The translations under genes and the position numbers were made by a program. The notes beneath the pieces were generated by a model, which was not told the origin of the DNA, made no database searches, and saw nothing but the letters and a program-made list of their open reading frames with translations. From a virus, in the IMG/VR virus record IMGVR_UViG_3300035665_000240, positions 1 to 23,898 of that record: a DNA stretch of 23,898 nt; one strand, written 5' to 3'. Shown in pieces: positions 7,596 to 23,898 of the stretch. Within the stretch, counting starts at the first letter, position 1; every line of letters begins with the position of its first letter.

Positions 7596-8504
7596 TTACG
7601 CGCCCTGGCTTCCGAAGATTCCTAAAGGATCGGAAACGCCAAAACTATAACGCTCCCTTGCTTTATATCTTACGTTACCGGTATCGAAGTCCCCGTCCAT
7701 TCCAGTACTCATCGGTGTCCGCACAAAGTGCTTCAATCCGTTGGGTACATCGGTGGTGAGGAACCAGCCGTTCGTGTCGGTCAAGAAGTGGTTGATCGTA
7801 TAGCCTTCTGGGATCGAACCGTTGTTCTTGATGGCGTTGATGTCGTTGTTGTTGGTGCCGACACGGAGTTCGGTTTCCAACAGACGCGTTGCCACGAACT
7901 GGAGGTTAGGAGGAACAATGAGCTTGCGTGGGCGAGCTGCAATCAACAGATCACGTTCGTCGGTCCAAGCTGCGATTTGAATGACTGCGTTTTCCAACGA
8001 AGTCTCATTCAAGTCTGCCTGGGTCGCGGGCGTGTTGCTGTTAGTGCCGCCGGATACAAGAGGATGTGATGTAGAGAACAGAGGCTGGCCGTCACCATAA
8101 GTAACGCTTGATGCCCATCCGTTGTTCAATACGGCTGCTGCTTTCACCTGCTTGGTGTATGCCATGGCGCGTGCGAGTGCCTTGGTATAACGTGAGCTGA
8201 GCGAGTCGTACAGGTTGTCTTCGATTGCCTCTTCGGTAATCGAGAAACCCATAGCGATCGTCTCATGGGTGTAGCGAGCTGTCCAAGCTTCCTGCGCGTT
8301 GTCATAACGAATCGCAGCGCCTTCGTTCTTGACCGGTGCGGCCGAGAATCCAGACAGCTTGGTTTCCTCTTCAAATGAACGCTCAGAGGTCTCGGTTTCG
8401 TAGATCTCTTTGTGTTCTTCGCCATAGCGAGCGTACTCAAGACCGAACAGTGCGTTCAGGCCGGGGAGCAGCTCTTTCAGTAGTTGTGCGCGTGAAATAG
8501 CCAT
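7596..8504 (-). CDS. Major capsid protein (HK97/Mu gpT-like fold)
   Basis: The 302-residue protein starts MAISRAQLLKELLPGLNALFG and has the N-terminal Glu-rich arm (KEIYETETSERSFEEE), the central helix with YTKALARAMAYTKQ, then DGQPLFSTSHPL and the later segment LIAARPRKLIVPPNLQ. These are features I recognise from Mu-like HK97-fold major head proteins. It would assemble into the icosahedral shell on the scaffold encoded upstream. The start has AGGGG eight bases upstream. It follows the probable capsid-associated gene by 11 bases and is followed by a strong terminator, as expected for the most abundant late product. Length fits the family. Confidence 0.85.
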   Translation of the reverse strand: MAISRAQLLKELLPGLNALFGLEYARYGEEHKEIYETETSERSFEEETKLSGFSAAPVKNEGAAIRYDNAQEAWTARYTHETIAMGFSITEEAIEDNLYDSLSSRYTKALARAMAYTKQVKAAAVLNNGWASSVTYGDGQPLFSTSHPLVSGGTNSNTPATQADLNETSLENAVIQIAAWTDERDLLIAARPRKLIVPPNLQFVATRLLETELRVGTNNNDINAIKNNGSIPEGYTINHFLTDTNGWFLTTDVPNGLKHFVRTPMSTGMDGDFDTGNVRYKARERYSFGVSDPLGIFGSQGA

Positions 8505-16387: not shown

Positions 16388-16487
16388 GCTTTGCCCTTCC
16401 ATTGCCGTGTGAACGTTATGCGAACGCATTATGACCGTTTATCGGTTGCAGTCAACCGTATGTCAGCTAGAACTTGCCATTAGTCCA

Positions 16488-16515
16488 TTTATACCCCTTA
16501 GCCTATTGCATACAA
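16488..16515 (-). promoter_or_regulatory. Promoter-like site for the terminase/capsid operon
   Basis: On the minus strand TTGTAT (16515-16510) is followed after 16 bases by TATAAA (16493-16488). It is about 100 bases upstream of the preferred terS start at 16387. Its -35 lies inside the left arm of the inverted repeat at 16510-16543. Confidence 0.5.
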
Positions 16516-16534
16516 TACATAACACGCCTATGAT
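16506..16534 (+). promoter_or_regulatory. Promoter-like site for the plus-strand cassette
   Basis: TTGCAT (16506-16511), a spacer of exactly 17 bases and TATGAT (16529-16534) fit a sigma70 promoter. It is 37 bases before the first ATG of the cassette. Its -35 overlaps that of the opposite promoter, and its -10 reaches the right arm of the inverted repeat. Confidence 0.55.
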
Positions 16535-16543
16535 GTATTGCAT
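16510..16543. promoter_or_regulatory. Operator-like inverted repeat between divergent operons
   Basis: ATACAATACAT (16510-16520) and ATGTATTGCAT (16533-16543) are inverted 11-base arms with one mismatch, separated by 12 bases. The centre-to-centre spacing (23 bases, about two helical turns) suits a dimeric helix-turn-helix repressor. It covers the -35 boxes of both promoters. The rest of 16430-16571 holds nothing else recognisable. Confidence 0.55.
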
Positions 16544-16571
16544 CGACTAACTACAACCTGGAGCCTTAATC

Positions 16572-16778
16572 ATGACAACCGATCAAGTCATTTCCTTAGC
16601 CGTGAGACATGCTGACTGCCCCAGCTCTCATGCTTGTTTAGATGATGCAGTCCTTGCCCTTACCGCTGATTACTTTACCCCGTCCGAGCGTCAGCTATAC
16701 GCTAAACAATGGGCAATCCGATCGCTTGCTCACTCCGTGGGCATTTTTCACCCTGATTACCAGCAGGCTACCCGCTGA
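16572..16778 (+). CDS. Small protein with SLAHSVGIFHPDYQ C-terminal motif
   Basis: This 68-residue protein is the first gene of the plus-strand cassette. TGGAG lies eight bases before the ATG. The C-terminal segment AIRSLAHSVGIFHPDYQQA is a motif I recall from short proteins of unknown function in beta- and gammaproteobacterial integrative elements, plasmids and phages. The N-terminus has ACLDDAVLALTADYF, likely helical. No enzymatic motif. The promoter-like sequence at 16506-16534 would drive it. Role unknown. Confidence 0.6.
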   Translation: MTTDQVISLAVRHADCPSSHACLDDAVLALTADYFTPSERQLYAKQWAIRSLAHSVGIFHPDYQQATR

Positions 16779-16792
16779 GAGCTTAGCCAATT

Positions 16793-16830
16793 GCCCCGGG
16801 CTCCGGGGCCTTTGGGTGCGCTTTTGCACC
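16793..16830 (+). promoter_or_regulatory. Tandem-hairpin mRNA leader, copy 1
   Basis: Two stem-loops follow each other in the gap between cassette genes: GCCCCGG/CCGGGGC with a three-base loop (16793-16809), and GGTGC/GCACC with a six-base loop (16815-16830). The second is followed by AACCAGAGAGAACCACAAC and then the ATG at 16852. The same order, second stem and AGAGAACCA segment occur before the gene at 17933. No U-tract, so it is not a normal terminator. Confidence 0.65.
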
Positions 16831-16851
16831 ATAACCAGAGAGAACCACAAC

Positions 16852-17052
16852 ATGAAACGATTGATTAACCGCTTAGCCCTCAGGCTTGCTCCCTTTACAG
16901 TGCGCGTGCTTAGCTCAGACCGCACTTATACCCACAAGGCGCACTCATACGCCGATGCGCTCTCATGGGCCCAGCAATACCCCGCCGACTGGGGACGCGT
17001 AGTTATAACCGGCCGGTTCGGTCGCGCAATTGCAGAACGGGGCCAAGCATGA
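16852..17052 (+). CDS. Small basic cassette protein (66 aa)
   Basis: The gene starts at the ATG at 16852, inside a longer open frame that begins within the previous gene; the hairpin leader and the AGAGAGAA sequence directly upstream support this start. The 66-residue product is basic: MKRLINRLALRLAPFTVRVL, then AHSYADALSWAQQYP and a C-terminal GRFGRAIAER. The ALSWAQQYP...RFGR-IA pattern resembles short proteins that I recall from proteobacterial mobile elements. The stop overlaps the next ATG (ATGA). Function unknown. Confidence 0.6.
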   Translation: MKRLINRLALRLAPFTVRVLSSDRTYTHKAHSYADALSWAQQYPADWGRVVITGRFGRAIAERGQA

Positions 17053-17351
17053 GCAAACCTTACACCGAGCGCACATGGCCCGAACGCCTCGCCATCATGA
17101 AAGACTTAGAGGCTTGCAATTCAATGATGCACCAGGGCCACGTTGGGAACGGCTTTGTCGCTGCCATTGGCCGGGATAGCTTCGCCGTGACCGATCAAGC
17201 CATGCGAGCCCATGGCTTTGAATGCGCCGAGCTTTACAACTTCCCGCTTGGCACTGATAAACCCGCCGAGCACCTACGCCATGACTCCCGCGGCTTTCCT
17301 TCCTGCTGCTGGCTTTTGGCTTGGTTCGAACCGATCGGGGGGCAAGCATGA
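17049..17351 (+). CDS. Cassette protein of unknown function (100 aa)
   Basis: The ATG at 17049 overlaps the previous stop (ATGA), so it is preferred to the longer frame opening at 16965. The 100-residue protein contains WPERLAIMKDLEACNSMMHQ, GNGFVAAIGRDSFAVTDQAM and a C-terminal SCCWLLAWFEPIGGQA. I do not recognise a family. It has no signal peptide. Its end again overlaps the next start by ATGA, so it belongs to one translationally coupled cassette. GC content is high like its neighbours. Confidence 0.55.
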   Translation: MSKPYTERTWPERLAIMKDLEACNSMMHQGHVGNGFVAAIGRDSFAVTDQAMRAHGFECAELYNFPLGTDKPAEHLRHDSRGFPSCCWLLAWFEPIGGQA

Positions 17352-17692
17352 TGCTACTGAGCAAAACCTATGAAATAATCACGCCCGAATCCGCCGAGGA
17401 TGGCGCGGTTGATCGGTCAGGCTTTGAGTTCGAGCGCGAGCCCTTTGGGTTCCGCGAGCTTATGCAAGCACTCGACGACTACGATCACCCCAGCGATTCG
17501 CACATAGGCCCACACACCTGGGTTTCGACCGCCCCAGAGATCGACTGGCGCACTGGCGCCGAGACGGTTTATAGCTTGCACTTTGTTGGGCCCGAGTCGA
17601 AGCGTAAGTATTGGCTGAGAGCATTACGCAATCGCTTTCGCCCGAAAGTAGAACCACGCAACCGCGGCCAAATGGCCCTTGAAGGAATTTAA
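17348..17692 (+). CDS. Cassette protein with GPHTWVSTAPEIDWRTG motif (114 aa)
   Basis: The ATG at 17348 overlaps the previous stop (ATGA); a second ATG follows at 17351. The 114-residue protein has FGFRELMQALDDYDHPS, then GPHTWVSTAPEIDWRTGAET and VYSLHFVGPESKRKYWLRAL. I recall similar short proteins (FREL...DY-PS, TRTG, SLH(Y/F)VGP) from proteobacterial plasmids and integrative elements, where their role is unknown. The basic C-terminus (RNRFRPKVEPRNRG) could bind nucleic acid. Its presence supports the idea that the cassette came from a mobile-element gene pool. Confidence 0.6.
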   Translation: MMLLSKTYEIITPESAEDGAVDRSGFEFEREPFGFRELMQALDDYDHPSDSHIGPHTWVSTAPEIDWRTGAETVYSLHFVGPESKRKYWLRALRNRFRPKVEPRNRGQMALEGI

Positions 17693-17694
17693 TT

Positions 17695-17859
17695 ATGAAC
17701 GACTACATTGCACAAGGCTTTAAGAACCGCCGCGACTATCTCGAATCATTGGCCGAGGAATACGACCGCGACAAGGTTTTTATGCTTGCTTCCTTGCTTG
17801 GCCCTTCCGAGGACTTTGACGGGCTAGTGACCGCCCTCGAAGATGACATGGATTACTGA
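17695..17859 (+). CDS. 54-residue cassette protein (GFKNRRDYL...GPSEDFDGL)
   Basis: This is a short but convincing gene: GAAGGA lies about eight bases before the ATG at 17695, and 54 codons end in TGA at 17857-17859. The protein includes GFKNRRDYLESLAEEYDRD and LASLLGPSEDFDGLVTALED. I recall the RRDYL-SLAEEY and LLGP-EDFDGLV motifs from a small family found in proteobacterial mobile elements; function unknown. It is separated from the previous gene by only two bases. Acidic overall, unlike its basic neighbours. Confidence 0.7.
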   Translation: MNDYIAQGFKNRRDYLESLAEEYDRDKVFMLASLLGPSEDFDGLVTALEDDMDY

Positions 17860-17871
17860 GGATGCAACCTC

Positions 17872-17910
17872 GGGCACTTTGCGAAGTGCCCAGGGGTGCA
17901 GCTTCGCACC
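17872..17910 (+). promoter_or_regulatory. Tandem-hairpin mRNA leader, copy 2
   Basis: GGGCACTT/AAGTGCCC with a four-base loop (17872-17891) is followed by GGTGC/GCACC with a six-base loop (17895-17910), then ACCAAGAGAACCAAACC before the ATG at 17933. The second stem and the AGAGAACCA segment match copy 1, while the first stem has a different sequence but the same place. Pairing rather than sequence is conserved in the first stem. Confidence 0.7.
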
Positions 17911-17932
17911 GATCAACCAAGAGAACCAAACC

Positions 17933-18376
17933 ATGGAACAACGCAAGCAGCAAATTATCGACAGCCTTTACCGCTGGATTAAGCAGCGCCCCGGACTTGA
18001 GTTCGGGAATTATGGCGACATTTCAGCTTACCGATCAGAGCTTCGCAGCATCACCAAAGATTTACACCACGCCCGCGAACTGCTCGCCTACGTTAGCCGC
18101 CGCCCAAGTATCACAGCCGACGATTTACTAACCGCCGCCCGCAGCGCCTTCAGCGGCCGCCTAAGCATACGCGAAGGCTTAGCACGCGCCGAGGTTGAAT
18201 ACTGTACCGGGCAATACTGGCCCACTGAATACCGCCGCGCTACTTGCGCCGTGCTTGCCTCGGCTATCTGGTATCGACTCCGCGACGATGTACAAGGCGA
18301 CGACAAAGCCGAAGCCATACGCAAGGCCGCACGCCGTGAGCTCCCCCGATCAGTAGCGGCCCGGTGGTTTCGATGA
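17933..18376 (+). CDS. Cassette protein with GQYWPTEYRRATCAVLASA motif (147 aa)
   Basis: The start is taken as the ATG at 17933, right after the hairpin leader, rather than the upstream in-frame codon at 17843 that would put coding sequence through the hairpins. The 147-residue protein has a helical N-terminus (KQQIIDSLYRWIKQRPGLEF), RSELRSITKDLHHARELL, and CTGQYWPTEYRRATCAVLAS followed by an Arg-rich C-terminus. I recall the GQYWPTEYRRA-CAVLAS segment in hypothetical proteins of proteobacterial mobile elements. It could be DNA-binding from charge; no catalytic motif is seen. The end overlaps the next ATG. Confidence 0.65.
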   Translation: MEQRKQQIIDSLYRWIKQRPGLEFGNYGDISAYRSELRSITKDLHHARELLAYVSRRPSITADDLLTAARSAFSGRLSIREGLARAEVEYCTGQYWPTEYRRATCAVLASAIWYRLRDDVQGDDKAEAIRKAARRELPRSVAARWFR

Positions 18377-18666
18377 TCTGCCGCCCTTTTTTCACCTTCG
18401 CACCCGCTGGAGACTTCGAGCGGGAATTTTTCCGACTGGTCGACGAGTATCGCGCACGCAACCCGCGCGGACTTTCGGGAACCATAGGCGAGAAAGGCAG
18501 CTTTCAGGTTTTCACGCCGCCGAAAACGACTCACCCGCTACTGTTCGCCGCTCAAATGGTTAGCCGCAAGGATTACCGCATAGCCGACCCCTACGGGCCC
18601 GCTGGCATGGTCGAATGTGAAGGCAGCTTGCTGTTCTATGGGCTTGCTATACACTCGCCCGGATGA
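18373..18666 (+). CDS. Cassette protein of unknown function (97 aa)
   Basis: The ATG at 18373 overlaps the previous stop (ATGA), which fixes the start in preference to 18364. The 97-residue protein has FEREFFRLVDEYRARNPRG, then KGSFQVFTPPKTTHPLLFAA and DPYGPAGMVECEGSLLFYGL. It is not a family I recognise. No membrane segment. Its end overlaps the next gene by ATGA. Codon use is GC-rich like the rest of the cassette. Confidence 0.5.
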   Translation: MICRPFFTFAPAGDFEREFFRLVDEYRARNPRGLSGTIGEKGSFQVFTPPKTTHPLLFAAQMVSRKDYRIADPYGPAGMVECEGSLLFYGLAIHSPG

Positions 18667-18863
18667 ATCCTTACATCGAGATGAACGAAGGCATGGCCGA
18701 GATTTTAGCGGCCTTGCCCGACCAATTCGAGCACCCGGGCACAGCCGCCGCCGCACTGGCCGCGGCCTTTGTCGTTCACTGTCGGCAATGGGGTATCACC
18801 GACGAGACCGCACAGACGCTTATCACCGCCGCTCTAGCCGACTACACACTGACGAAGCATTGA
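18663..18863 (+). CDS. Last cassette gene, small helical protein (66 aa)
   Basis: The ATG at 18663 overlaps the previous stop. The 66-residue acidic protein has EGMAEILAALPDQFEHPGTA and AAALAAAFVVHCRQWGITDE, an Ala-rich helical arrangement without a clear membrane anchor. Its last 30 bases overlap the 3' end of the primase-like gene on the other strand, so the two operons converge with no intergenic terminator that I can see. I do not recognise the family. Confidence 0.5.
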   Translation: MNPYIEMNEGMAEILAALPDQFEHPGTAAAALAAAFVVHCRQWGITDETAQTLITAALADYTLTKH

Positions 18864-19876: not shown

Positions 19877-20049
19877 ACCTTCCCCCCAAGTAGTAGCCTC
19901 AGTGAATCCATGACCCAGTACTTCGGGCCTGTCGTTATCCCCGCGGCGATACGCCATATCGATGACTGAGTAACACCAATTGACTTGGCAATCTGGTGAT
20001 GCGTCATGCCCCTAGCTTCCAGCGCTCTCACTATTTCCTGTGGTGTCAT
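19873..20049 (-). CDS. Short helix-turn-helix DNA-binding protein (58 aa)
   Basis: The ATG at 20049 overlaps the helicase stop (ATGA), giving a 58-residue protein; the longer reading to 20157 would lie within the helicase gene in another frame. It is essentially one HTH: MTPQEIVRALEARGMTHHQI, AKSIGVTQSSIWRIAAG, then a helix YWVMDSLRLLL. The QIAKSIGVTQSSIWRI segment fits the Cro/CI (XRE) recognition pattern. As the main small HTH protein beside the divergent operons it is a candidate to bind the inverted repeat at 16510-16543, though this is inference. Confidence 0.75.
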   Translation of the reverse strand: MTPQEIVRALEARGMTHHQIAKSIGVTQSSIWRIAAGITTGPKYWVMDSLRLLLGGKV

Positions 20050-23000
20050 ACCAATCTCCTGCCGAACTTGCTCTTCGCATACTTGATGACCTGCTGCTTG
20101 ATCTTGTTCTGTGTAACCATCCTTGGCTCCACAAAGATCGCCTCGTGAAACTTCCACTTAGGCCAATCCCCCGTCAGGTTCTTGTACTGGGCCTTGGCAA
20201 ATCGCTCAGCCGCCGCAAGATCCCCGCGCTTCCTGTCCTTGCTGATCTGCACAATCTCCCACCAAACCAGCCGCTTATCTGACATCCAATCCGATGACTT
20301 GGTGCCGCCAAACTCCACCATCTGGCCAGCCGTATTCAGTACATTGCTTGCGGATCTGCGCTCTGCCCCGCACGATGGACACACCCGGCCGCGAAACATG
20401 TACCCGCACGCCGTGCATTTGATCTCTGCCTTCTCTTTCTCAGTAGGCTCCTTGCGTACCTTGGCGTCTAGCTTCCCGTCCTCTAATTCCTGTACGCCAT
20501 GGGCAAATACCTCTACCTGATCCTCCCAGAACCGAGTGAGGTTGCCTGCGTGACAGTTGTGGACTAGGAGACCTTCACAAGTGAAGCGATTGTGGGGTCC
20601 GGCGTTGAGTATGTCCCATACTTCCCTTTCGGTTTCAACGATGGTTTGTGGAACCTCTCGATGATCTGGTCGTCGGTCATGCCTGTTGCGAAAAACTTTT
20701 GCAATGTACTGTCCGAATATTTTATTTCTGGGTTTTTCATCCTGAAGCGGTGCATGTGTGCCACCGACTTCGGGCCCCTTTTGTTGCACTGATTTAGTTT
20801 GATAGAGGCCCAGCGCAAATTTCCAGGCTCGTAGTGCCCATTTGTATCTATTCGATCGAGTTGTACGTAACCACGATCTAGCTTGGTTTCGAATTCCGGT
20901 ATACCCAAGTTGTTCATGATCCAAATGGTCCCGGCTTTTACCCCAGGAAACCTGAACTCGATTCCTCTCCCGCCGTAGTGTTGATACTGACCGTTTTTCG
21001 GGTTGCAGCACCTTGCCCTCATGGCTTGAACTCTCGAATAAAGCCAGTCTGGATAAACCGGGTCCGGCTGGTTGCAATTCCTGCAACCTTTGGTCTTTGC
21101 TCCAGTCAGGTTGTGAAAAGAAATCACCGATCTGTTGAAACAAGTCACGCACTCGCATATGACGTGGAGTTTTCTGTTTCCCTTTTTCCCCAACCACATA
21201 ACGTGAGGATCCACGATCTCCACCGATCCGTATCGGGCTCCAACCAAGTCCGGTCTGTGTGATGACGATCTGTTTTTCGGCACATTCCCCAAAGGTGCGC
21301 CAACCATCTTTCGTGTGGACGAGGTGATTTGGGGTTGCTGTGAGCCCCTGATATGTGATGACTTTTCTGATTCCATTGCAGACGGCTCCTCCATGGGTGA
21401 TAAAGTTACATCCGTCCCATATTTTATGGTCTTTTGTAACTTTTTCAATAGGTACAAGCCCTCTGTCCGTTAGAACCCTACTTCCACGCGCAAGGCACAG
21501 CCACACAGCGAAGTCCTTGCCGGGATGCGGACGCATAACCCTGCCCATCTGCTGAATGTGACCCGATAATGATTTTCTATATGGCCTGGCACATACACCG
21601 ATTTTAATATCTGTAACATCAAATCCTTTTGCCAATGCCTCACAAGATATTAATCCGATAATATCGCTATCAGGTTTTCTGAACTCATCGATTAATTCCC
21701 TGCGTCGTTCGTTATTACCATCTTTATAACTGATCTGCTGAAAGTTATAACCCCTCTGTGCAAACTCCCTGCACAATTCCTCACCGTGTGCAACGGTTGC
21801 GCTAAATACAATGGTTTTAACTGGGCCATTAAAGTGTTTATTGGTAGCCTCGATCCACTCGGACACAATGTCTCCGACGATCTCAACCCCTTGTTTTTCC
21901 ATATCTTTTTCTGCCCACTCGCCATCAAACTTAACTTCGGCGCCACGCATATCCATTTCGGATTTCGCTACAAACATTTTAACGGGCACTAACCAACCAT
22001 CATTAATTAGTTTATCGGTCGTGGTGCTGTTAACTACGTTACTAAATATCTTTGATAATCCTTTTGTAAATGGTGTTGCAGTTAATCCAACAACCACCGC
22101 ATTTGGATATCTATTAATTGCATCTGCTACAGATTTGAATACCGTATGGCATTCATCTATAACAATTAACTTTGGCTCATTATCTATCTTGCGTCTTGCC
22201 AATGTCTGTGCGGATATAACCTGCACATATTCATATGGACGCCAGCGCCAGTGATCCGCCTGTATGACGCCATGAGGTACGCCATACCTATCCAGTGTTG
22301 TACTGGTCTGGTCTACCAGTGACACCCGATCGCATATGAACCAAGCTACGTTCTGCTTGGCTCTTGCTTCGTTCAATAAGTAGCTGGCGGATACTGTATT
22401 GTGCGTTACCGTGAAGTCGCCAAGGCAAAACAATCGATTGCCATCAATCTCAAACCCGTAGTAATCATCTTCCGGCAGTTCCTCAAGGGTTATTCCTGTA
22501 ACCAAATGGCGCTTCTTTTGGTTTCGTACAGGGAATACTTTGTCCCTTGTGGGTATACGATCAAGATCCCCTGTAAGGCTAACCCTCCAGTAATCTGAGC
22601 TGAAGCCAAGTGATTTAATGCCTTTGCGCTGCTTTGATACGTAAGCACTGAAACCACATGAGCGAGCAATAAAAACAAAGTCGTTTGCTAGGTGCTCGTA
22701 CTTGCTAATCCAATCACACCCTGACTTATCAATCGATCCATCGGTATCAATCATGCCGGCGAGGATCTCTAGCCTATCCCTTATGTCAGCGTACTTGTAA
22801 ATATCTGGAATGTGTTTGTTCTTAAACACACGGAGCTTTTTAAGATTCTCGGTAAATTGGTTTGTCTTATCCTGGGACTTCAGTGTATGGGTCGGACATC
22901 CGTTGTATGAATAACTAGTGCTTATCGAACAACCAATTGACTGTCCATACGCAATCCATTCATCAATCATCTTGCAAGGATATTTTGATATGGCTGGCGA

Positions 23001-23549
23001 CTTTGCTGTTCCGTCACCTATCCATGCTCCAAGAATGTAAGGCGGAATAGGTAGATCAGCATCAACCCTGTCAAATTTTTGAATCCCTGAACATCGCCAA
23101 CCCTTGAGGTTGTGTTTAACAGTTTGATTGCTAGCAAAAAATACATCTGCTCTGACGTTAACAATATCGGCGTCTTTTGAGATTTTTGTGCCATCGCTTA
23201 ACACCATGCCATCTGTGCCAAATGTTTTTCTAAGGCTCAGAATGTGGCTGGCATTAACAACGTATGGATCGCCTTTGATAGGCACAACACGAAACATTTT
23301 TTCCCGCCCGCGAGCTATGGACAAAACGGTTCTAGGCGTACCGTCATCACCCATGATCTTGTCCCGAGGGAATACAAATTGCACCGGGATAATTCTCCCG
23401 TTGGCCATTAGTATTGGGGTGTCTTTTGCTAAGCACTTGCCAGCTCCGGTGGGCGCCACCAGGATCTGTGACCGGTGCCCCTTGCGGACACCATCACGTA
23501 GCTCATCCAGTGCTTTGATTTGGTAGTCACGCAGACTTTCGATCAGCAT
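20046..23549 (-). CDS. SF2 DNA helicase with two inteins
   Basis: From the ATG at 23549 (GGAGG six bases upstream; an earlier codon at 23573 lacks one) the precursor is 1167 residues. Extein motifs: P-loop APTGAGK ending at K38 and continued by T385 after intein 1; DECH at 465-468; TAT at 490-492; motif VI QQMGRVMR around 666-673; a four-cysteine zinc ribbon at 1045, 1048, 1057 and 1060. Removing inteins at 39-384 and 685-998 leaves a 507-residue DEAD/H helicase of normal phage size. It would unwind DNA for replication or recombination with the Toprim protein. The gene overlaps its neighbours at both ends. ATPase activity requires intein 1 splicing, because the P-loop is split. Confidence 0.9.
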   Translation of the reverse strand: MLIESLRDYQIKALDELRDGVRKGHRSQILVAPTGAGKCLAKDTPILMANGRIIPVQFVFPRDKIMGDDGTPRTVLSIARGREKMFRVVPIKGDPYVVNASHILSLRKTFGTDGMVLSDGTKISKDADIVNVRADVFFASNQTVKHNLKGWRCSGIQKFDRVDADLPIPPYILGAWIGDGTAKSPAISKYPCKMIDEWIAYGQSIGCSISTSYSYNGCPTHTLKSQDKTNQFTENLKKLRVFKNKHIPDIYKYADIRDRLEILAGMIDTDGSIDKSGCDWISKYEHLANDFVFIARSCGFSAYVSKQRKGIKSLGFSSDYWRVSLTGDLDRIPTRDKVFPVRNQKKRHLVTGITLEELPEDDYYGFEIDGNRLFCLGDFTVTHNTVSASYLLNEARAKQNVAWFICDRVSLVDQTSTTLDRYGVPHGVIQADHWRWRPYEYVQVISAQTLARRKIDNEPKLIVIDECHTVFKSVADAINRYPNAVVVGLTATPFTKGLSKIFSNVVNSTTTDKLINDGWLVPVKMFVAKSEMDMRGAEVKFDGEWAEKDMEKQGVEIVGDIVSEWIEATNKHFNGPVKTIVFSATVAHGEELCREFAQRGYNFQQISYKDGNNERRRELIDEFRKPDSDIIGLISCEALAKGFDVTDIKIGVCARPYRKSLSGHIQQMGRVMRPHPGKDFAVWLCLARGSRVLTDRGLVPIEKVTKDHKIWDGCNFITHGGAVCNGIRKVITYQGLTATPNHLVHTKDGWRTFGECAEKQIVITQTGLGWSPIRIGGDRGSSRYVVGEKGKQKTPRHMRVRDLFQQIGDFFSQPDWSKDQRLQELQPAGPGLSRLALFESSSHEGKVLQPEKRSVSTLRRERNRVQVSWGKSRDHLDHEQLGYTGIRNQARSWLRTTRSNRYKWALRAWKFALGLYQTKSVQQKGPEVGGTHAPLQDEKPRNKIFGQYIAKVFRNRHDRRPDHREVPQTIVETEREVWDILNAGPHNRFTCEGLLVHNCHAGNLTRFWEDQVEVFAHGVQELEDGKLDAKVRKEPTEKEKAEIKCTACGYMFRGRVCPSCGAERRSASNVLNTAGQMVEFGGTKSSDWMSDKRLVWWEIVQISKDRKRGDLAAAERFAKAQYKNLTGDWPKWKFHEAIFVEPRMVTQNKIKQQVIKYAKSKFGRRLV
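20556..21497 (-). mobile_element. Intein 2 (314 residues) with out-of-frame endonuclease gene
   Basis: The element starts at Cys685 (CLARGSRVLTDRGLVPIE, block A), has block B TPNHLVHT with H742, and ends with VWDILNAGPHNRF then LLVHN (blocks F/G) before Cys999 of the extein. All splicing residues are present: first Cys, block B His, penultimate His and final Asn, +1 Cys. There is no LAGLIDADG or HNH motif in this frame. The linker of about 200 residues is Arg/Gln/Ser-rich and matches nothing, because it is the other frame of an endonuclease gene. It sits after motif VI in a VWL-HAGN sequence. Confidence 0.9.
20564..21307 (-). CDS. Homing endonuclease-like protein nested out of frame in intein 2
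   Basis: The frame is +1 to the helicase. It is open from 21457, but its first 50 codons are only shifted intein sequence; the ATG at 21307 (GAAAG nearby, weak) gives 247 residues. From there: DLVGARYG at about 20-27, a Cys cluster (CECVTC at 51-56 and CRNC at 75-78), a helix with SRVQAMRARCCNPKN, YGGRGIEF at 111-118 and LDRIDTNGHYEPGNLRW at 150-166. This is the phage family with a DL-G-R-G / Cys / YGGRGI / DRID-NG-YEP-N-RW series, HNH- or AP2-like and often found as mobile endonucleases. The first catalytic His of standard HNH is Arg here, which is usual for this family as I recall it. TDDQIIERF near the end may be DNA-binding. Confidence 0.85.
   Translation of the reverse strand: MVGAPLGNVPKNRSSSHRPDLVGARYGSVEIVDPHVMWLGKKGNRKLHVICECVTCFNRSVISFHNLTGAKTKGCRNCNQPDPVYPDWLYSRVQAMRARCCNPKNGQYQHYGGRGIEFRFPGVKAGTIWIMNNLGIPEFETKLDRGYVQLDRIDTNGHYEPGNLRWASIKLNQCNKRGPKSVAHMHRFRMKNPEIKYSDSTLQKFFATGMTDDQIIERFHKPSLKPKGKYGTYSTPDPTIASLVKVS
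22398..23435 (-). mobile_element. Intein 1 (346 residues) with LAGLIDADG endonuclease, in the P-loop
   Basis: The element begins at Cys39 immediately after GAGK and ends at Asn384 (FCLGDFTVTHN), followed by Thr385, which restores GAGKT. Block A is CLAKDTPILMANG, block B has NASH (H102), and block F/G is YYGFEIDGNR and LGDFTVTHN. The two LAGLIDADG helices are LGAWIGDGT (173-181, D179) and LAGMIDTDGS (263-272, D270), both with the catalytic acid, so the homing endonuclease is probably active. P-loop insertion is a known preferred intein site because it is very conserved; unspliced precursor cannot bind ATP. Confidence 0.93.
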
Positions 23550-23898
23550 GTTGACCCTCCAAGAATTCTCCATGCTGTTGCCGCCACTGCTGGAACTTGT
23601 CCATTTCCAATGGCTTTAAGTCTGTCCACTCTAGCGGCCACCCCATCAGCCACTCGACCCACGTCGGGTTCAACTTTCCACCATTCCCCGCTCCCATAAG
23701 GCGGGCTTGCTCTATCCCGACATTGTTTTTCAGCAACTCCCAAGAGCCTGAGCCCCCGCACATCCCCGCAGTTCTTGGTGAGGGCCATTTCATCACCGCC
23801 GTTGCCAATCCGTCTCCGCTCGTTGGACTCAGACCTTTCTTGTTGTAATTTCCATTTACGATTGGAGTAGGCCAAATCTTCACAGCCAGCGACAGCGG
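23527..23898 (-). CDS. C-terminal part of a phage DNA methyltransferase-type protein, 5' end off the edge
   Basis: The frame is open to the right edge; a GTG at 23883 could be an internal start giving 118 residues, but the residues before it (PLSLA) also fit the family. The visible part has LWPTP-type repeats (IWPTPIV, KWPSPRT), NYNKKGLSPTSGDGLATAV, GGKLNPTWVEWLMGWPLEWT and a final DLKPLEMDKFQQW. I recall this C-terminal series from phage cytosine-methyltransferase-like proteins (often called Dcm-like) and from standalone short proteins. The catalytic motifs would be upstream, outside the window. It may protect phage DNA from host restriction. Its 3' end overlaps the helicase start. Confidence 0.6.
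   Translation of the reverse strand, partial: PLSLAVKIWPTPIVNGNYNKKGLSPTSGDGLATAVMKWPSPRTAGMCGGSGSWELLKNNVGIEQARLMGAGNGGKLNPTWVEWLMGWPLEWTDLKPLEMDKFQQWRQQHGEFLEGQHADRKSA

Follow-up and report, generated by a model that had tools for sequence, protein, structure and literature searches.

The window, i.e., the whole stretch of DNA that was analysed, is a 23.9-kb fragment (23,898 nt) of a virus of bacteria deposited in IMG/VR. Its - strand carries portal and terminase genes as far as position 16429, and a primase-like Toprim gene together with a helicase containing intein segments from 23573 down to 18834. Between these two blocks, a + strand operon extends over 16572-18863; none of its eight small genes matches a family, and Blast of the whole operon against named phages gave no match. 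The junctions of this operon are either 4-nt overlaps or 2 nt long, except those between genes 1 and 2 and between genes 5 and 6, which are gaps of 73 nt each, and it is here that the two leaders sit. Just 5' of gene 1, at 16507-16545, an inverted repeat (ATACAATACAT / ATGTATTGCAT) flanks a promoter-like TTGCAT-17-TATGAT and looks like a candidate operator of the operon. Regarding the helicase, its 1175-aa ORF (20046-23573, - strand) contains Hint/LAGLIDADG (intein) segments, and a 297-aa ORF (20564-21457, - strand) overlaps it in another frame, so that two long frames occupy the same DNA; judged by eye, the shorter one looks like an HNH-type endonuclease.

The features of the two leaders, and the genes that follow them, are listed below.

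16776..16778, + strand: gene 1 ends here with TGA, in overlap with strand A of element 1 (5' end)
16777..16830, + strand: element 1, whole, in the order A, hairpin 1, B, C (from the fold, the inverted repeat and the covariance model)
16777..16790, + strand: strand A of element 1 (GAGAGC, U.C mismatch, UA, G.G mismatch, CCAA)
16793..16809, + strand: hairpin 1 of element 1 (GCCCCGG/CCGGGGC, perfect stem 16793-16799/16803-16809), present in both folds
16815..16825, + strand: strand B of element 1 (GGTGC plus the loop GCTTTT), common to both exclusive folds
16826..16830, + strand: strand C of element 1 (GCACC), pairing with 16815-16819 in the tandem fold (hairpin 2)
16839..16847, + strand: AGAGAACCA spacer of leader 1, with a weak Shine-Dalgarno-like GAG; ATG at 16852
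16852..17052, + strand: gene 2 (66 aa, no family), first of the block of genes 2 to 5 (4-nt overlaps or 2-nt gaps)
17857..17859, + strand: gene 5 ends here with TGA, in overlap with strand A of element 2
17858..17910, + strand: element 2, whole: A (GAGG, mismatch, TGCA, mismatch, CCT), hairpin 1, B, C; inverted repeat 17858-17905
17872..17891, + strand: hairpin 1 of element 2 (GGGCACTT/AAGTGCCC, perfect stem 17872-17879/17884-17891)
17895..17910, + strand: hairpin 2 of element 2 (GGTGC-AGCTTC-GCACC), exclusive with the A:B pairing
17920..17928, + strand: AGAGAACCA spacer of leader 2; ATG at 17933
17933..18376, + strand: gene 6 (147 aa, no family), first of the block of genes 6 to 8 (4-nt overlaps)

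The original prediction assigned both leaders the same layout, and the stems, six-base loops, AGAGAACCA and ATGs are all found where it placed them; within the window the motif GGTGC-N6-GCACC has exactly two occurrences, as has AGAGAACCA, one per leader, and in folding energy each leader surpasses 199 of its 200 shuffles (z -2.64 for both). Its description of the leaders as tandem hairpins was incomplete, since both hairpins are real but a competing, extended fold had been missed. Both structures start upstream of the leaders as first delimited, on the TGA of the upstream gene, and the minimum-energy fold is a longer imperfect hairpin in both cases: at 16777-16825 in leader 1, where 16777-16790 (GAGAGC-U-UA-G-CCAA) pairs with 16812-16825 (UUGG-G-UG-C-GCUUUU), and at 17858-17905 in leader 2, where 17858-17870 (GAGG-A-UGCA-A-CCU) pairs with 17893-17905 (GGG-G-UGCA-G-CUUC). 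The same arms, of 20 and 22 nt, were recovered by a repeat search. Because the extended fold takes up both the GGTGC strand and the loop behind it, the GGTGC/GCACC hairpin (GGTGC-GCTTTT-GCACC at 16815-16830 in element 1) cannot form alongside it. Strand B thus has two partners: its imperfect pairing with A lengthens hairpin 1 to about 21-23 levels (approximately two A-form turns), and its perfect pairing with C is the hairpin 2 already recognized. The two folds are mutually exclusive and nearly equal in energy; the extended fold is lower in all but one of the close versions tested and equal in that one, the energy of the tandem fold minus that of the extended fold has a median of +1.8 kcal/mol, and the tandem fold is favoured in 17 of 56 elements.

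More than 50 distinct relatives were identified in viral contigs by an architecture scan and two pattern scans; for close relatives, scans of viral contigs yielded about 20 distinct versions. A strict architecture scan of 1.4 Mb yielded 23 stop-anchored matches in the real sequences vs 0 in shuffled ones; without the anchor the same scan gave 268 vs 273, with GC-rich chance hairpins dominating, as they also did in a looser first architecture scan, which indicates that the stop anchor and the tight geometry carry the signal. A pattern derived from three members matched 48 stretches of the viral contigs, vs 3 when the pattern was reversed (one of these inside a member), and nearly all the matches lie on a stop codon, 20-35 nt 5' of differing genes. 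Furthermore, a stop-anchored scan within the pattern-matched contigs gave 77 real vs 9 shuffled matches, adding elements unrelated in sequence, with one to four elements per record. Matches to the pattern TGGGGTGCGCTTT..GCACC in L122, L123 and L124, which fall within or between reading frames without the layout, and a match in L118, likewise without it, were set aside as chance. Leader 1 gave only short chance matches in Blast against named phages and plasmids, the isolates HTVC027P, 023Pt_psg01, HTVC033P and CRP-207 had no covariance model match, and two exact patterns had 0 matches in bacterial genomes.

Across these relatives the geometry is recurrent. Full length falls between 21 and 23 levels for 53 of the 63 filtered elements; the length filter of the scans (17-27 levels) tightens this spread without itself reducing it to 21-23. 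Among the 63, hairpin 2 has its 5' end 10-11 nt from the base in 46, and the stop codon stands at -2..0 of strand A in 47. From the base inwards, the recurring pattern is 5-6 bp, a mismatch, 2 bp, a purine-purine mismatch and then about 12 levels; counted from the base, the mismatches occupy levels 6 and 9, or 7 and 10, and are thus three levels apart. Among 26 scored elements, G.A is the inner mismatch in 17, G.G in 5 and A.G in 3; C.C, C.U and U.C predominate at the outer one, and the alignment columns C12 and G45 are invariant.

The structure had been judged to persist despite sequence change, and compensatory changes strongly support this for hairpin 1, for the GGTGC/GCACC hairpin and for the extended pairing alike. 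In close versions, hairpin 1 appears as GCCTCG/CGGGGC, CCCGG/CCGGG or GCCCCCC/GGGGGGC; B:C appears as GGTGC/GCACC, GGTGG/CCACC (L005, L038, L057), GGTAC/GTACC (L057) and many other forms; and A:B changes on both sides are seen in L034, L005 and L057. G-U wobble pairs occur on the gene-sense strand, which points to the RNA of that strand. Covariation in homologues, named beforehand as the check on the shared leader, is present. For an unbiased test, we took a set of 35 distinct sequences selected by pattern, considered only positions outside the pattern, and re-dealt the strands among the sequences. The paired fraction was 0.848 for the A:B outer stem (0.640 +/- 0.034 shuffled), 0.947 for B:C (0.548 +/- 0.062) and 0.963 for hairpin 1 (0.654 +/- 0.042), and 0 of 1000 shuffles reached any of the three observed values; given the relatedness among the sequences, the shuffles are not to be read as strict probabilities. 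All three helices, both competing ones included, are thus supported by unbiased covariation.

In an alignment of 41 sequences (A1), 11 of 13 A:B pairs are altered on both sides, and the A:B covariation score is 0.499 vs 0.179 shuffled (0 of 500 reaching it) and at most 0.143 when the strands are slid; A1 includes members chosen by fold, so this test leans towards structure. The A1 covariance model finds element 1 (16778-16830, 46 bits, E 1.8e-12, with close relatives in the training set), and it also matches L120, outside the training set, with E 9e-8. Its second-best match in the window is element 2 (12.5 bits, E 0.18), likewise outside the training set. The view of the leaders as duplicates consequently holds for the structural class, to which both belong, and not for the sequence, where leader 2 is divergent (12.5 vs 46 bits) and need not be a recent duplicate. 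Taken together, the structure class of the element is well supported, and both leaders are members of one widespread phage intercistronic RNA element, for which the sequence shows the order A, hairpin 1, B, C.

The element also occurs next to different genes. Element 1 is retained while upstream genes are exchanged, and in L010, L015 and L037 a type-1 element directly precedes gene 6 rather than gene 2; both facts indicate that the element is modular. The junction of this recombinant layout lies inside a shared CAACCAAGAGAACCAA stretch. A gene 2 homologue without the element (L050) has a strong AGGAG ribosome site where leader 1 has the weak AGAGAACCA. In L103 and L119 the same layout is found upstream of a gene of 221 aa (Pfam GP88) that is unrelated, and in L120 upstream of yet another gene. 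Among 80 relatives of the GP88 gene, picked by protein similarity alone, the upstream regions include versions of wholly different sequence (L127-L129, L166, L173, L183 and L202). Elements differing in sequence were also observed on both sides of the GP88-family gene in L173, L175 and L183/L238.

Processing sites between phage genes are already known. For instance, T7 R1.1 is a 60-nt known RNase III substrate with an asymmetric internal loop, located between genes 1 and 1.1 (PMC6121014). In our analysis the T7 early intercistronic segments fold similarly to the leaders; those between genes 0.4 and 0.5 and between genes 0.7 and 1 start at the TGA of the preceding gene and give long hairpins interrupted by an internal loop. 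Presumed cut positions were drawn on these segments. Like the T7 RNase III sites (R0.5, R0.7, R1.1 and others), the element stands between cistrons, close behind the stop codon of the upstream one, and has an imperfect hairpin of about 20 levels with an internal loop or mismatches midway; the next start follows a few tens of nt later. Unlike them, it has a covarying strand C, which is present in all members by construction and of which the T7 scan finds none; its mismatches stand at fixed places, its sequence is far more variable, and its cutting by RNase III is putative. 5'-terminal stem-loops stabilise E. coli mRNA, according to the account of Emory et al. (1992) given in PMC3997798. After a putative cut, the downstream message would open with hairpin 2 and run through an unstructured, A-rich leader to the start codon, and its 5' end would thus resemble such ompA-type stem-loops, although in the element this hairpin is internal to an operon and has an upstream strand as its competitor. 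The three segments with exclusive pairings, A:B vs B:C, both covarying, recall attenuators and riboswitches; unlike these, the element has no U-tract after C, and its start region is unmasked in either state. The two-hairpin layout also brought to mind HK022 put-type antitermination RNA, which alters RNA polymerase to let it pass terminators.

A search of the full text of open-licence papers found no description of the bistable architecture, and Rfam 15 gave no match at the elements, whether those of the window or those of 14 related loci. One sub-threshold match to a phage-type family, int-alpA (28.4 bits, gathering cutoff 35.8), was seen in L119 at 7696-7772, - strand, away from the elements; being the only one, and not at an element, it led us to reject an int-alpA identity. 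Intergenic hairpins are common in phages, and what sets this class apart is the combination of two covarying exclusive helices, a fixed geometry, a stop-codon anchor and recurrence across unrelated phages and genes, a class that is absent from Rfam.

The original prediction offered protein binding, mRNA stabilisation or processing for the leaders, and as far as sequence can tell all three are possible, with processing or stabilisation fitting best. Its most likely function, as inferred here, is mRNA processing and stabilisation at the borders of translationally coupled gene blocks. The best explanation of the whole, which we put forward tentatively, is a processing site in which B refolds with C after the cut and which divides the operon into blocks. 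The extended fold would be the processing site for an enzyme that cuts double-stranded RNA, most likely host RNase III, with a cut near the boundary between hairpin 1 and B that would divide the operon into the coupled blocks gene 1, genes 2-5 and genes 6-8. The freed strand B could then refold with C, so that hairpin 2 would start the downstream message and shield its 5' end, and the upstream message would finish in hairpin 1. Possibly A is covered, and the cut delayed, by a ribosome at the stop codon. A double helix of constant length over unrelated sequences suits an enzyme that measures double-stranded RNA, and the cut-and-refold model would account for why A:B is imperfect and B:C perfect, why the elements sit between gene blocks, and why their sequence is free to vary. 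Counting in its favour, the elements separate blocks of overlapping genes, and the start region is equally open in both folds, so that gating of translation is not needed; counting against it, near-balanced folds are superfluous for a plain processing site, and the T7 sites lack a C strand in the same scan, which makes the resemblance partial. If true, such sites would provide a sequence-readable map of how operons are divided into messages in uncultured phages.

Near-balanced folds and a stop codon within A leave room for gating by the terminating ribosome, the explanation we rank second and consider unlikely: a ribosome terminating upstream would mask A and allow B:C, and otherwise the extended hairpin would form, so that decay, pausing or downstream translation would depend on upstream translation. 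The elements would then be a class of bistable stop-codon switches, found in many unrelated phages, in which the terminating ribosome decides between a double-stranded hairpin that is cut and a pair of short hairpins left uncut; we give this form of the idea the same rather low probability. The stop codon at -2..0 of A in 47 of 63 elements, the closeness of the folds in energy (median 1.8 kcal/mol), the covariation of both folds and the extent of strand A, which is about the span that a terminating ribosome would cover, speak for it. Against it, the switch has no visible output, as the start region (-18..+3) is as open in the ensemble (unpaired probability 0.63) as when the tandem fold is imposed (0.62), and a constant hairpin length is not required. 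On the same grounds, masking of the ribosome site is disfavoured as unlikely. Were the switch real, the fate of a block's message would be coupled to translation of the preceding block, and ribosome gating would represent a new way of linking message fate to translation.

The remaining readings are less probable. That the hairpins act without cutting, blocking 3'-to-5' decay of the upstream message and giving differential expression of the blocks, is improbable; their position directly 3' of the stop codon, their GC-rich stability and their occurrence between gene blocks agree with such a role, which leaves the competing B:C helix and the fixed mismatch pattern unexplained. The competing helix is equally unaccounted for if the irregular hairpin (G.A or G.G mismatch, CUAGC/CGAUA motif) is the site of a phage or host RNA-binding protein controlling the operon, a slightly less probable reading: the inner mismatch (G.A, G.G or A.G in 25 of 26), the mostly C.C, C.U or U.C outer one and the invariant C12 and G45 favour it; against it, elements precede or follow many unrelated genes in phages that are themselves unrelated, and no protein emerged as a candidate. 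That the leaders are not simple terminators was correctly anticipated, no terminator-like site being called at either of them, and none of 56 elements has at least 5 U in the 8 nt after the hairpin (5 of 56 have 4 U). It is thus very improbable that the extended hairpin, with a U-containing 3' arm, stops part of the transcription after each block; several members do pair an A-rich with a U-rich run in the outer stem (L195, type 1), but leader 2, L088, L019 and L185 have no U-run. Least probable of all is a DNA-level cassette or recombination site marking exchangeable genes. The likeness to integron attC sites is that both lie after the stop codon of exchangeable genes and combine variable sequence with a conserved imperfect hairpin; the retention of element 1 while upstream genes are swapped, and the type-1 element before gene 6 instead of gene 2 in L010/L015, would agree with it. 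Unlike attC, the element has + strand G-U wobbles and the B:C helix, which point to RNA, the attC core sites RYYYAAC / GTTRRRY expected at the hairpin base are absent from the consensus of 41 elements, and elements flanking one gene differ in sequence (L173, L183, L175).

Other candidates were considered and rejected. A pseudoknot or kissing interaction between the loop of hairpin 2 and A is possible in type 1, but was dropped by reasoning: leader 2 offers too little pairing in the loop, and every loop nucleotide would be taken up. A leader peptide starting from UUG after GGGGUG is not conserved in relatives (L005), and neither is GCUUUU as a boxA/nut-like motif. As for strand C acting as an anti-Shine-Dalgarno, C sequences are variable and do not match downstream start regions; in L126 alone C does match the start region, but that gene-start sequence is identical in relatives without the element. 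Finally, the genome of one relative (L014, 9250-10438) contains a long array of 18-nt units in which AGAGAACCA-like words alternate with GAACGAGTCA-like words (minus strand of the repeat reading), an array that has the AGAGAACCA word in common with the leaders.
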